From Streptomyces cyaneochromogenes (GTDB lineage: Bacteria > Actinomycetota > Actinomycetes > Streptomycetales > Streptomycetaceae), in assembly GCF_003963535.1 (NCBI RefSeq), contig NZ_CP034539.1, forward strand, positions 6,820,001-6,884,000: DNA of 64,000 nt, written 5' to 3'. The notes under the pieces were generated by a model. That model saw only the letters and a program-made list of their open reading frames with translations, did no database searches and was not told the DNA's origin. How positions within the stretch are numbered: the first letter of the stretch is position 1; every line of letters starts with the position of its first letter. Shown here piece after piece: positions 24,038 to 28,069 of the stretch. Both the position numbers and the translations under genes were made by a program.

Positions 24038-25144
24038 ATGCCGACTTACGACCTGTACGCCTCGGATCCGGGAGACCCACTCTGGCAGGTGCCGGCGACC
24101 GGCTCGGCACGTTTCGGCTGGGAGTACGACGACGGCCGCGACCGGCTGCTGGCCCTGTACCAGAAGGGCAAGGACAAGCAGTGGGACGGGCAGAAGCGCA
24201 TTGACTGGGATCTGGAGGTCGATCCGGCCGATCCTCTCGGAACGCCCGATGAGTCCATGTCCCTGTACGGCACCAAGTACTGGGCCAAGATGACCGACAA
24301 GGACAAGGGGGAGCTGCGCAAGCACTACGCCTCCTGGCAGTTCAGCCAGTTCCTGCACGGTGAGCAGGGGGCGATGGTCTGCGCCGCGCGGATAGTGGAG
24401 TCGGTGCCGGACCTGGACGCCAAGTTCTACTCGGCGACCCAGGTGATGGACGAGGCCCGGCACGCGGAGATCTACGGGCGCTTCCTGCACGAGAAGATCG
24501 GGATGCTGTACCCGATCAACGACAATCTGCAGGCCTTGTTGGGCGACACGCTGCGGGACAGCCGGTGGGACATGCCCTACCTCGGTATGCAGGTGTTGAT
24601 CGAGGGGCTCGCGCTGGCCGCGTTCGGCATGATCCGGGACACCACCGACAAGCCGCTGCCCCAGCAGATCCTGGCGTATGTGATGCAGGACGAGGCCCGG
24701 CACGTGGCCTTCGGACGGATGGCGCTGCGGGACTACTACCGGCAGCTGAGTGACGCCGAGCTCCGCGAGCGGGAGGAGTTCGTGATCGAGGGCTGCTATC
24801 TGATGCGCGACCGGCTGCGGGGCGTGGAGGTGCTGAGGAACTTCGGCATCCCGGCCGCCGAGGCCGAGGAGTACAGCGAGCAGTCCGAATTCCTCGCCCT
24901 GTTCCGCCGGTTGCTGTTCTCCCGCATAGTCCCCTGCGTCAAGGACATCGGGCTGTGGGGGACGCGTCTGCAGCAGGCCTATGTCGACATGGGCGTGTTC
25001 GAGATGGGCGACTCCAACTTGGACCTGCTGATGGCCCAGGACGAGGAGATCGCCGAGCGGTTGGACGCCGAGCGGTTCGCGGTGGAGGAGCGGGAGCGGG
25101 TCACGGAGGTGGCGGAGGCGATCGAGGCGGGCGGCTCTCAGTAG
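24038..25144 (+). CDS. R2-like ferritin-fold diiron oxygenase
   Basis: Helical protein of 368 aa with the ferritin/ribonucleotide-reductase-R2 four-helix metal site: Glu in FLHGEQGAM, ExxH in VMDEARHAEIY, Glu in LIEGLALAAFGM and ExxH in VMQDEARHVAFGRM. It lacks the radical-transfer features of a true nucleotide reductase subunit, so an oxidase or hydroxylase role is more likely. The start is ATG 24038 (MPTYDLYASDPG). Its stop overlaps by 7 bp the stop of the convergent prodomain-like gene. It shares a promoter gap with the AurF-like gene, which suggests a common pathway (inference). Confidence 0.85.
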   Translation: MPTYDLYASDPGDPLWQVPATGSARFGWEYDDGRDRLLALYQKGKDKQWDGQKRIDWDLEVDPADPLGTPDESMSLYGTKYWAKMTDKDKGELRKHYASWQFSQFLHGEQGAMVCAARIVESVPDLDAKFYSATQVMDEARHAEIYGRFLHEKIGMLYPINDNLQALLGDTLRDSRWDMPYLGMQVLIEGLALAAFGMIRDTTDKPLPQQILAYVMQDEARHVAFGRMALRDYYRQLSDAELREREEFVIEGCYLMRDRLRGVEVLRNFGIPAAEAEEYSEQSEFLALFRRLLFSRIVPCVKDIGLWGTRLQQAYVDMGVFEMGDSNLDLLMAQDEEIAERLDAERFAVEERERVTEVAEAIEAGGSQ

Positions 25145-25431
25145 GACGTCGGGCCGAAGTCGGGCGGCGAGAGGACGGCCACCGCCTCGATGCCGTCCGC
25201 GATCTCGCGCGGCAGCCGCTCCAGCGGCAGTTCGTCCGACTGCGTTGTGTCCGGGGCCGTCCCGAAGGTCTCCAGGTACGCGGTCCGCGGACCGGTCAGC
25301 GCGAAACCCGAGGCGATCACCTCGCCCACGTCGAATCCATGGTCCGCGAAGTAGGCGAGTACTTGCTCGACGGGTTTCTGCGCAGCGAGCAGCACATGGG
25401 ACGAAAGAGGGTTCGGGGAATTCTGGGTCAC
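25138..25431 (-). CDS. Stand-alone protease-prodomain-like small protein
   Basis: Protein of 97 aa. I recognise no named family, but it lines up end to end with the N-terminal region (about residues 35-145) of the divergent subtilase. The shared features are a helix, then GFDVGEVIASGFALTGP against GFRVLQRSPQTLNIAGP, a Tyr-x-Glu-x-Phe-Gly-Thr motif in both (YLETFGT and YQEYFGT), and a terminal GIEAVAVLSPP against EGVAIEEPVY. It may be a free-standing chaperone or inhibitor of that protease. No signal peptide. Start GTG 25429-25431. Homology was judged by eye. Confidence 0.7.
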   Translation of the reverse strand: MTQNSPNPLSSHVLLAAQKPVEQVLAYFADHGFDVGEVIASGFALTGPRTAYLETFGTAPDTTQSDELPLERLPREIADGIEAVAVLSPPDFGPTSY

Positions 25432-25575
25432 GGTTCGTCCAACGGTCGAGAATCATGAGGGCATACGTCTAAATGAGTATGTCCAACGGGTGTGGTTTTC
25501 CCCTATAGATGAAGGCTGTCCGTCGAAGTCTCTTTGACGGGTCCGTCGGAATGTTCATCGGAGTTGGGGGAGAAA

Positions 25576-28020
25576 ATGCCCGATGAAGCCGGTTCAAGGC
25601 TGCCCGAAATTCTGTTCGCCCAGGCGTCGCCGCGTTCCGTCGGCGGGACCTCGCTGTTCGAGGCGGACGACGTCACCGTCGGTCAGGCGGCGGACTACAC
25701 GTCCGAGGACCAGGTCGTGGCGGCCGCCGAGGAGCGGCTGACCAGGGCCGGCTTCCGCGTCCTGCAGCGGTCCCCGCAGACCCTCAACATCGCAGGTCCG
25801 CCCGCTCTCTACCAGGAGTACTTCGGCACCCGGCTGGTCACGCAGGAACGCCGGGTCGTCAAGCCGGGCGCGCGGGAGGCGACCGCCACCTTCATCGACT
25901 CGCCGGACACCGACCTGCCCGGACTGATCTCGACCGACGGCACGCCGGCCGGCGACGTCCTTGAGGGCGTGGCCATCGAGGAGCCGGTGTACACCTTCCA
26001 GAACGCCACTCCCCCGAAGGTGAATTACTGGCATCTGGAGGTGCCGGACCAGGTGGCGGCACTGCTGGGCGCGAACCGGGCGCACCAGAATGGAATCAAG
26101 GGAAATGGAATCCGGCTGACCATGGTGGACAGCGGCTGGTTCCGGCACCCGTATTTCGTCGCCCGGAATCTCAACGGCACGGTCGTGCTCGGCCCCGGCG
26201 CGAACAACCCGGCCGGCGACGAAAGCGGCCACGGAACCGGGGAATCCGCCAACGCGTTCGCTCTGGCGCCCGGGATCGACTTCTCGATGGTCAAGGCGAA
26301 CTTCGTCAACATCCTCGGCGCGTTCAACACCGCCGTGGCCCGCACCCCGGCCCCGCAGATCATCAGCAACAGCTGGGGATACGACGTCCGGGACCACCCG
26401 TTGAGCGCCATCCAGCGGGCCCTGGCCGCCTCGGTCGCGCTCGCCGCGGCGAACGGCATCATCGTGGTGTTCTCGGCGGGCAACGGCCACCATGGCTTCC
26501 CCGCCCAGCACCCTCTTGTCATCGCCGCGGGCGGTGTGTACATCGACCAGGTGGGCAACGCCCGCGCCTCCGACTACGCCAGCGGCTTCGCCAGCCGCGT
26601 CTACCCCGGCCGCAACGTCCCCGACCTCAGCGGTCTGGTCGGGCTGCGCCCGCGCGCCGCGTACATCATGCTGCCGGTCCAGGCGGGCTGCGACATCGAC
26701 CTGGACCTGGGCAACGGGGCGGCCTTCCCGAACGGTGACGAGACCGCCCCGGACGACGGCTGGGCGGCGTTCAGCGGCACCTCGGCGGCGGCGCCGCAGA
26801 TCGCCGGCATCTGCGCGCTGATCCGCCAGACCCAGCCCAACCTGAACCTGCGCGGGATGCGCAACGCCCTGACGCGCACCGCCAAGGACGTCACGACCGG
26901 CACGTCCAACCCCGCGTCGGGCGGCCACCCCGCGCGCCCCGGCTTCGACCTGGCCACCGGCTGGGGCCTGGCCGACGCCCAGGCGGCGGTGCACGCCGCC
27001 GTCCCCGCGGCCGGCGGTCCCGCCGCCTACGCCCGGGGCAGCGACCGGCACGTCTTCTACCGCGGCGCGGACAACCTCCTGCGCGAGCTGTGGTGGTCCC
27101 CGGCGACCGGCGGCTGGCGCGTCGGCGACCTGGGCGCGACGGCGCTCGGCATCCCGGCGTCGGGCAACCCGGCCGCGTACCTTCTCGGCGACAGCCAGCA
27201 CGTGGTCTTCCGGGGCACGGACGGCCGTATCCGCGAACTGTGGTGGTCCCCGGCGAGCGGCGGCTGGCGCACGCCCGGCCTGGACGCCGCCGCCCACGGC
27301 CTGCCGGCGGCGGGCGACCCGCACGGCTATGTCCTGGGCGACAGCCAGCATGTCGTCTTCCGGGGCACGGACAGCCGTGTCCATGAGCTGTGGTGGTCGG
27401 CGGCCACGGGGTGGCGTGTGGGCGGTACGTCGGCGGTGGCGCAGGCGGTTCCGGCTGCGGGCGATCCGTTCGGTTATGTGCTGGGGGACACGCAGCATGT
27501 GGTGTACCGGGGGACGGACGGCCGCATCCACGAGCTGTGGTGGTCCGCGCCGACGGGCTGGCAGCGCGGCGGGCTGGACGCGGTGGCGCAGGGCATCGCG
27601 GCGGCGGGCGACCCCCAGGCGTACGTCCTCGGCGACAGCCAGCACGTGGTCTTCCGGGGCACGGACAGCCGCGTTCACGAACTGTGGTGGTCGGCGGCCA
27701 CGGGGTGGCGTGTGGGCGGTACGTCGGCGGTGGCGCAGGCGGTTCCGGCTGCGGGCGATCCGTTCGGCTACGTGCTGGCGGACACGCAGCACATCGTCTA
27801 CCGGGGCACGGACAGCCGTATCCACGAGCTGTGGTGGTCCGCGGCGACGGGCTGGCAGCGCGGTGGCCTGGACGCGGTGGCGCAGGGCGTCGCGGCGGCC
27901 GGCGACCCCCAGGGGTACGTCGTCGGCGACGCCCAGCGCGTCGTCCACCGGGGGACGGACGGCCTCCTGAACGAACTGTGCTGGACCGCCGCACGCGGCT
28001 GGTACATCGGAGACCTCTGA
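25576..28020 (+). CDS. Subtilisin-like serine protease with seven-repeat propeller-like C-terminus
   Basis: Protein of 814 aa. Residues 1-145 form a prodomain-like region; no signal peptide is visible, unusual for a subtilase. The S8 catalytic domain (about 150-470) has Asp185 (TMVDSGWF), His219 (ESGHGTGES), SNSWGYD for the oxyanion Asn, and Ser403 (SGTSAAAPQIAG). From about 475 to the end are seven repeats of about 49 residues with the pattern GYVLGDSQHVVFRGTD then HELWW, resembling seven-bladed fucose-binding PLL-type lectins; carbohydrate binding is inferred. A 98-residue (294-bp) double-blade unit is nearly identical at the DNA level at 27391 and 27685, so it was recently duplicated. ATG 25576 follows GGGGGAG. 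Confidence 0.88.
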   Translation: MPDEAGSRLPEILFAQASPRSVGGTSLFEADDVTVGQAADYTSEDQVVAAAEERLTRAGFRVLQRSPQTLNIAGPPALYQEYFGTRLVTQERRVVKPGAREATATFIDSPDTDLPGLISTDGTPAGDVLEGVAIEEPVYTFQNATPPKVNYWHLEVPDQVAALLGANRAHQNGIKGNGIRLTMVDSGWFRHPYFVARNLNGTVVLGPGANNPAGDESGHGTGESANAFALAPGIDFSMVKANFVNILGAFNTAVARTPAPQIISNSWGYDVRDHPLSAIQRALAASVALAAANGIIVVFSAGNGHHGFPAQHPLVIAAGGVYIDQVGNARASDYASGFASRVYPGRNVPDLSGLVGLRPRAAYIMLPVQAGCDIDLDLGNGAAFPNGDETAPDDGWAAFSGTSAAAPQIAGICALIRQTQPNLNLRGMRNALTRTAKDVTTGTSNPASGGHPARPGFDLATGWGLADAQAAVHAAVPAAGGPAAYARGSDRHVFYRGADNLLRELWWSPATGGWRVGDLGATALGIPASGNPAAYLLGDSQHVVFRGTDGRIRELWWSPASGGWRTPGLDAAAHGLPAAGDPHGYVLGDSQHVVFRGTDSRVHELWWSAATGWRVGGTSAVAQAVPAAGDPFGYVLGDTQHVVYRGTDGRIHELWWSAPTGWQRGGLDAVAQGIAAAGDPQAYVLGDSQHVVFRGTDSRVHELWWSAATGWRVGGTSAVAQAVPAAGDPFGYVLADTQHIVYRGTDSRIHELWWSAATGWQRGGLDAVAQGVAAAGDPQGYVVGDAQRVVHRGTDGLLNELCWTAARGWYIGDL

Positions 28021-28030
28021 CCCGCCCGCC

Positions 28031-28061
28031 CGTGGACCGGGGAGATCCTCCCCGGTCCACG
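28031..28061. terminator. Bidirectional hairpin after the subtilase gene
   Basis: A perfect 14-bp stem (CGTGGACCGGGGAG with its complement) closes a 3-base ATC loop between two convergent stop codons. It is a very stable structure without a T tract. Confidence 0.75.
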
Positions 28062-28069
28062 GACCGGAG

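Follow-up and report, generated by a model that had tools for sequence, protein, structure and literature searches.

A stand-alone relative of a subtilase prodomain encoded beside its protease in Streptomyces cyaneochromogenes

Inhibitors that are free-standing copies of subtilase propeptides have been described mainly in eukaryotes, SUB1-ProM, TgMIC5 and POIA1 being examples of this MEROPS I9 type. Here we describe a bacterial gene pair, an S8 subtilase gene and beside it a small gene encoding a relative of the prodomain of this protease, in a stretch of 64,000 nucleotides from Streptomyces cyaneochromogenes (contig NZ_CP034539.1, positions 6,820,001 to 6,884,000; hereafter the window, in which positions are counted from its first letter). 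According to the respective reports, SUB1-ProM is a free propeptide-fold protein, modelled with its C-terminal residues reaching into the active site of the subtilase (PMC6993865); the prodomain of CspB of Clostridium remains bound and occludes a competent active site, works in trans too, and when so supplied prevents labelling of the active site as long as its last residues are present (PMC3567191); and IPI (BsuPI) is a reported inhibitor of the intracellular subtilisin Isp1 of Bacillus subtilis that would gain a signal peptide from an alternative start (PMC3901451). We consider it probable that the pair described here is a two-gene module in which the free prodomain binds and inhibits the mature subtilase.

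The small protein and the prodomain of the neighbouring protease

Comparison of profiles relates the small protein, which stands alone, to the prodomain of the neighbouring protease. The alignment of the small-protein profile with the prodomain profile by hhalign gave a probability of 99.1 (E 5e-19, over 121 columns), and the controls, i.e. the catalytic domain, either half of it and the small-protein alignment in reverse, gave probabilities of at most 0.8. The prodomain segments used in this comparison were cut by alignment columns (residues 5-150) and not by the hidden Markov model (HMM) of the small proteins, and the control columns were freed of prodomain sequence, some of the called open reading frames (ORFs) having long upstream extensions. 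The parallel between the 97-aa protein and the N-terminal region of the subtilase that the sequence-only reading of this DNA had noticed was thereby confirmed. With both copies of this genome excluded, the small-protein HMM matched the window protease at residues 24-116 of its 828-aa ORF (E 3.1e-12); at E < 1e-3 it matched the N-terminal part of 79 protease ORFs out of 83, a total in which near-duplicate loci are counted. In the reverse direction, a prodomain HMM, built from segments excised with the small-protein HMM, matched 48 of 63 small proteins at E < 1e-3 and the window one at 2.5e-4. When the small-protein alignment was used as a profile against the PDB sequences, residues 32-160 of kumamolisin (1t1e) were the only match below E 0.1 (E 5.9e-4).

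Both genes lie where that reading had placed them, the small gene at 25138-25431 and the protease gene ending at 28020. The features of the locus are as follows:

25138-25431, minus strand: stand-alone prodomain-like protein, 97 aa, GTG start, C-terminus SPPDFGPTSY
25432-25575, no strand assigned: divergent intergenic region between the small gene and the protease gene
25566-25572, plus strand: ribosome-binding site GGGGGAG of the protease gene, as read from the sequence
25576-28020, plus strand: S8 subtilase with its own prodomain and C-terminal repeats, 814 aa (Pfam Peptidase_S8, E 1.6e-17; DUF346, E 7e-9)
25576-26025, plus strand: protease prodomain, about residues 1-150, from the AlphaFold2 (AF2) model and Foldseek, with a putative cleavage site
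26035-27003, plus strand: catalytic domain, about residues 154-476, from the phmmer match to subtilisin BPN' (starting at residue 164) and the protease alignment
26128-26130, plus strand: catalytic Asp185, invariant in 68 aligned proteases
26230-26232, plus strand: catalytic His219, invariant in the same 68
26482-26484, plus strand: oxyanion-hole Asn303, invariant in the same 68
26782-26784, plus strand: catalytic Ser403 in SGTSAAAPQ, invariant in the same 68
26986-28017, plus strand: seven DUF346-like repeats of 49-50 aa, residues 471-814, a possible beta-propeller
25136-28069, no strand assigned: two-gene insertion of 2.9 kb between the AurF-like and DUF3291 genes, with an empty site in the related locus L170 (genome G001)

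Judged from its sequence, the protease is an S8 family member with an intact triad in the order Asp, His, Ser, the roles of Asp185, His219, Asn303 and Ser403 being assumed from the S8 motif. Its start is most likely the ATG at 25576 (814 aa) rather than that of the TTG-started 828-aa ORF, because the ribosome-binding site lies upstream of this ATG and the MPD start is kept in the orthologue L158. The best 12-residue hydrophobicity means near the N-terminus were 0.61 for the protease and 1.13 for the small protein, which indicates that neither carries a signal-peptide-like stretch and agrees with the earlier statement that the protease has no signal peptide.

The small gene behaves like a real gene. 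Genome G626 keeps both genes, with a small protein of 97 aa (71% identity) whose GTG start and divergent orientation are also conserved, and the ratio of nonsynonymous to synonymous substitution rates (dN/dS) between the window and G626 is 0.37 for the small gene and 0.32 for the protease (residues 1-476, 82% identical), values consistent with purifying selection on both genes. A consensus scan of 25000-25700 revealed neither a sigma-70-like promoter nor a terminator.

The C-terminal repeats of the protease show 51% self-identity at period 49 and exceed the Pfam cut-off for DUF346 (35.7 bits vs 22, over three stretches). At the DNA level this region has tandem periods of 147 and 294 bp, and between 27196 and 27984 a 294-bp unit comprising two repeats is present in 2.7 copies with 86% match, a sign of recent expansion. 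The earlier description of seven repeats of about 49 residues was correct, and they can be assigned to DUF346. Their identification as a PLL-type seven-bladed propeller was overstated: no solved PLL structure was matched by sequence, a single chance antibody match appearing at E 0.067, the repeats were modelled with low confidence, and about two of the seven are lacking in the nearest orthologue. A closed seven-bladed propeller is thus a possible arrangement of the seven repeats. The G626 protease is 715 aa long, i.e. 99 aa or about two repeats shorter than that of the window, and because its assembly consists of about 1350 contigs, near-identical repeats could have collapsed there.

The predicted structures point in the same direction as the profiles. 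The AF2 model of the small protein (mean predicted local distance difference test score, pLDDT, 87.3) has the order strand, helix, strand, strand, helix, (short helix), strand, a predicted alpha/beta fold, and VIA-align ranked residues 31-172 of pro-kumamolisin first, aligned with 94 of the 97 residues at Z 7.6 and 23% identity, followed at Z 5-6.4 by a mixture of subtilisin propeptides, POIA1 and unrelated folds. Although the structural match taken alone is modest, sequence and model together describe the small protein as a predicted propeptide fold without a protease domain. In the protease model, all ten-residue blocks from 11 to 470 average at least 85 except 141-150 (mean 56), with residues 143-146 below a pLDDT of 50; Foldseek returned intact pro-kumamolisin first (E 4e-19), then fervidolysin and pro-subtilisin E. 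The last residues of the small protein align in hhalign near protease residue 145, within this low-confidence loop, and it is from these two observations that the loop at about 143-146 is predicted to be the likely self-cleavage region.

Of 58 small proteins, 19 reached E 0.1 or better against Pro-kuma_activ (PF09286), that of locus L029 exceeding the curated cut-off (34.8 vs 23.5 bits), and other Pfam families matched at most two of the 58 each. Inhibitor_I9 was not among the 13 Pfam families listed for these proteins at E 0.1, nor was BsuPI among their Pfam matches, and no NCBIfam model matched any of them at E 0.01. The C-termini are uniform, since 60 of 64 small proteins stop within 10 residues of the end of their own-HMM match (the exceptions are L033, L054, L061 and L088). 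A PPxFGP end is found in 22 of the 64, another FGP-like end in 6, an aromatic residue within 5 residues of the end in 20, and no such feature in 16. Seven (L029, L030, L037, L069, L071, L080 and L093) carry at the N-terminus an extension in frame that resembles a lipoprotein signal when judged by eye, and none of the proteases passed the hydrophobicity cut-off applied.

Distribution and history of the pair

Scanning genome contigs with five aligned proteases yielded 78 loci with protease relatives. They come from many phyla, and two carry archaeal titles; because a large part is metagenome-assembled, single taxonomic assignments may be wrong. A relative of the small gene, sought by phmmer with both copies of this genome as queries (29 relatives at E 1e-5) and then with an iterated HMM, was found at 63 of these loci, or 65 if the degenerate or broken copies in L078 and L094 are included; three loci could not be judged, L020 being partly masked and L059 and L096 cut. 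By these sequence criteria the pair is a family that recurs across phyla in bacteria and some archaea. The sequence-only reading depended on a profile match between the two proteins and on the presence of the small gene beside most orthologous proteases, both of which were found, and it is supported in its core, a divergent stand-alone prodomain beside its protease, and only in part beyond it. A literature search, mostly at title and abstract level and without most subscription papers, found no description of this pair.

Counting the near-identical records L021 and L048 once (62 loci), the small gene lies on the protease strand in 58 and on the opposite strand in 4, so the divergent order of the window is the rarer one. 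In 20 loci the small gene is at least 1.2 kb downstream of the protease; each of these has a radical S-adenosylmethionine (SAM) relative of the L031 enzyme, and in all 8 that were read out the radical SAM gene lies between protease and small gene. Neither a radical SAM nor an oxygenase-like match was present in the locus DNA examined for 37 of the 63 pairs, which leaves the protease as the constant partner of the small gene. The linkage was also analyzed from the side of the small gene, by scoring the ten best candidates in every one of 396 genomes of the phylum. The separate short matches were the window gene, a further copy in the terminal repeats of the same genome (present twice), G335, G575, G283 and G229, and all adjoin a protease except that of G229, for which none was found in 9 of the contig's 21 kb. 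The other matches lie in open frames of at least 315 aa, some of which are the protease prodomains of the same loci.

Within the genus, a single-sequence search with the small protein in 150 genomes returned only the genome's own copies and G055 (E 9.7e-4, in a frame with two stops), and the protease was detected at E 1e-30 in 8 of 199 genomes, its own included. In a scan of 392 genomes, two candidates scored in each, G626 gave the only other match reaching far into the repeats (1-717), that of G734 ending at 520. More distant proteases of the same genus (L012-L015) stand beside AMP-binding genes, in L012 and L015 also with aminotransferase-like genes, all named by eye.

A quick tree comprising 63 small proteins together with 77 prodomains required 3 label changes, compared with about 46 when labels were shuffled; several long branches are unsure. 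Because the two groups are almost separate, the small gene looks, on this sequence tree, like one old paralogue and not like the product of repeated new copying. The pair of the window was inserted as a two-gene unit. In L170 (G001) the AurF-like and DUF3291 genes are 97 bp apart, and both flanks share 89-90% identity with the window; G007 has a gap of 34 bp and a DUF3291 gene that is broken up, and five other genomes hold 0.4-1.3 kb in this slot without a blastn match to the window. Across related genomes the slot thus contains different or almost no sequence.

The second pair of this genome (L018, 6833-8889) is situated about 73 kb from both ends of the 10.68-Mb contig and hence presumably in the terminal inverted repeats. 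Its protease has no C-terminal repeats, and protease and small gene share one strand, the small gene starting about 40 bp downstream. Duplication within this genome is not the simplest source of both pairs, given that the window protease clusters with L009, L036 and L040, and the protease of the second pair with L025, L028, L024 and L052.

Proposed mechanism and competing explanations

We propose that the built-in, pro-kumamolisin-like prodomain at the N-terminus takes part in the folding of the protease, which would then cut it off in the loop near residue 145. The free prodomain would subsequently sit on the mature enzyme in place of the built-in one, its C-terminal SPPDFGPTSY occupying the active-site cleft, and the enzyme would stay silent until the free prodomain is displaced or degraded. 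For product-like inhibition a free prodomain has to end close to the cut site, an arrangement modelled in the case of SUB1-ProM and shown in that of CspB. The DUF346-like repeats of this copy would probably guide the protease to a ligand, perhaps a glycan.

Several observations weigh against this inhibitor model or the homology on which it builds. The prodomain HMM did not match 12 of 63 small proteins, no Pfam family matched the window small protein, and pairwise BLASTP between the small protein and its own protease gave only E 0.014 over 27 residues, too weak to decide on the resemblance. The Z of 7.6 is below the level that VIA-align calls safe, with unrelated folds reaching 6.4, and Foldseek searched with the small model found nothing below E 0.001. 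Since the uniformity of the C-termini was measured against the family's own HMM, the ends alone do not locate the cut site. No small gene was found at 10 of the 78 loci (L027, L032, L035, L036, L038, L040, L052, L074, L075 and L083), and two of these, L036 and L040, group with the window protease. Finally, the lipoprotein-like extensions of seven small proteins, together with the absence of any protease that passed the hydrophobicity cut-off, fit poorly with both partners always being cytoplasmic.

As an alternative, the small protein could be a folding chaperone that acts in trans and is afterwards degraded, without lasting inhibition. Its fold and homology would suit this role equally well, and the CspB prodomain restores folding when supplied in trans (PMC3567191). 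Yet the window protease already includes an entire prodomain, for which the model is of high confidence, so that a chaperone in trans is not obviously needed and the extra copy is best read as a regulator; moreover, ten loci have the protease without a small gene being found. We hold the chaperone explanation to be unlikely.

Rather improbable, in our judgement, is a protease toxin with its antidote, serving defence or competition and spread as a selfish or defence cassette. The sporadic occurrence in the genus (8 of 199 genomes), the two-gene insertion and the further copy in the terminal repeats would be expected of such an element, and the PADLOC scan, covering the pair and two relatives, gave a weak subtilase match (E 1.6e-7). 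This match, however, covers the generic S8 domain, and the Pfam-scanned flanking proteins are AurF-like, TetR, DUF3291 and NIT/histidine-kinase-like, none of them a recognised defence gene.

Tailed relatives and comparison with known systems

Many of the relative proteases end with the catalytic domain. At 25 loci, among them L023, L024, L026, L031, L033, L037, L041, L044, L046 and L058, the protease was seen by eye to carry a proline-rich tail (PIxPI-type repeats) that usually ends in a short acidic motif, the frameshifted L063 being left out of the count. Each of the 25 encodes a radical SAM relative of the L031 enzyme, an oxygenase-like protein, or both. When tails were called by rule in 66 rows, 21 had tail and enzyme, none a tail only, 6 an enzyme only and 39 neither; L020 was dropped here because its tail is masked, and L026 and L081, tailed by eye, fell under the proline threshold. 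With only 4 phylogenetically independent pairs on supported branches, the association of tail and enzyme is not significant.

The three radical SAM relatives that were scanned (L031, L060 and L036, the last at a locus without a small gene) all score far above the cut-off of TIGR03975, a C-methyltransferase of ribosomally synthesized and post-translationally modified peptides (RiPPs). The oxygenase label is a weak one, since of five members tested only that of L042 matched 2OG-Fe(II) oxygenase models, at E 0.002 and below the cut-off. A LanC-like gene is present at four loci (L029, L035, L039 and L065; only the L029 member was scanned), and at L029 (9663-13969) it is accompanied by an LxmK-like kinase (below the cut-off) and a HopA1-family protein, a set that recalls class V lanthipeptide clusters.

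That the small protein itself is the substrate, a prodomain-like leader whose C-terminal PPDFGP part is modified and released, is improbable: the radical SAM or oxygenase-like neighbours of 26 of 63 pairs, the TIGR03975 matches (two of the three within pairs) and the PPxFGP end shared by 22 of 64 small proteins would suit a RiPP precursor, but the remaining 37 pairs show neither enzyme, the end is conserved and not variable, the enzymes follow the protease tail instead, and no TIGR03975 gene was found in the genome of the window, on which ground this reading was rejected for the window itself. The proline-rich tail of the protease may rather be the substrate of the neighbouring enzymes. In a still broader and quite tentative view, subtilase and free trans-acting prodomain would form a caged-protease platform, widespread in prokaryotes, whose C-terminal module is exchangeable (DUF346 repeats in the window, a proline-rich tail in relatives), and the tailed proteases would themselves be RiPP-like precursors, their tail C-methylated and oxidised by the neighbouring enzymes while the free prodomain keeps the enzyme locked, and the product cut out by the protease on release.

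For the inhibitor model, the pairing in many bacteria and some archaea suggests a two-gene way to keep a protease in check. If the family stays linked to the protease across phyla, it would be a simple genetic system in which to study the safe storage of a subtilase in cells and its unlocking; it would also name a gene family that no NCBIfam model reaches, and provide a handle on RiPP-type clusters whose protease carries a putative modified tail.

Among the known systems, the SUB1-ProM type is similar in that the small protein is predicted to share the free propeptide fold, POIA1 being among its structural matches. SUB1-ProM, TgMIC5 and POIA1 are eukaryotic, whereas the small proteins of the present family come from bacteria and archaea, are pro-kumamolisin-like in sequence and encoded beside the protease, and are putative inhibitors. 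In kumamolisin the activation domain (PF09286) is the N-terminal part of a sedolisin (S53), whereas here it corresponds to a separate gene beside an S8 protease. As with IPI, some of the small proteins may gain an N-terminal signal, but the fold of IPI is immunoglobulin-like and all-beta, and that of the small protein is predicted to be alpha/beta. QhpE and the RiPP leader proteases are, as here, S8 proteases, in their case of peptide maturation; the QhpE model matched the L031 protease at E 3.8e-9, far below the cut-off of the model, and the available part of a review on RiPP proteases (PMC10885120) does not mention a prodomain or propeptide. Finally, the prodomain of CspB is part of the protease gene, with no separate second copy described in the available part of the report, whereas in the pair described here a free prodomain is encoded by a gene of its own.

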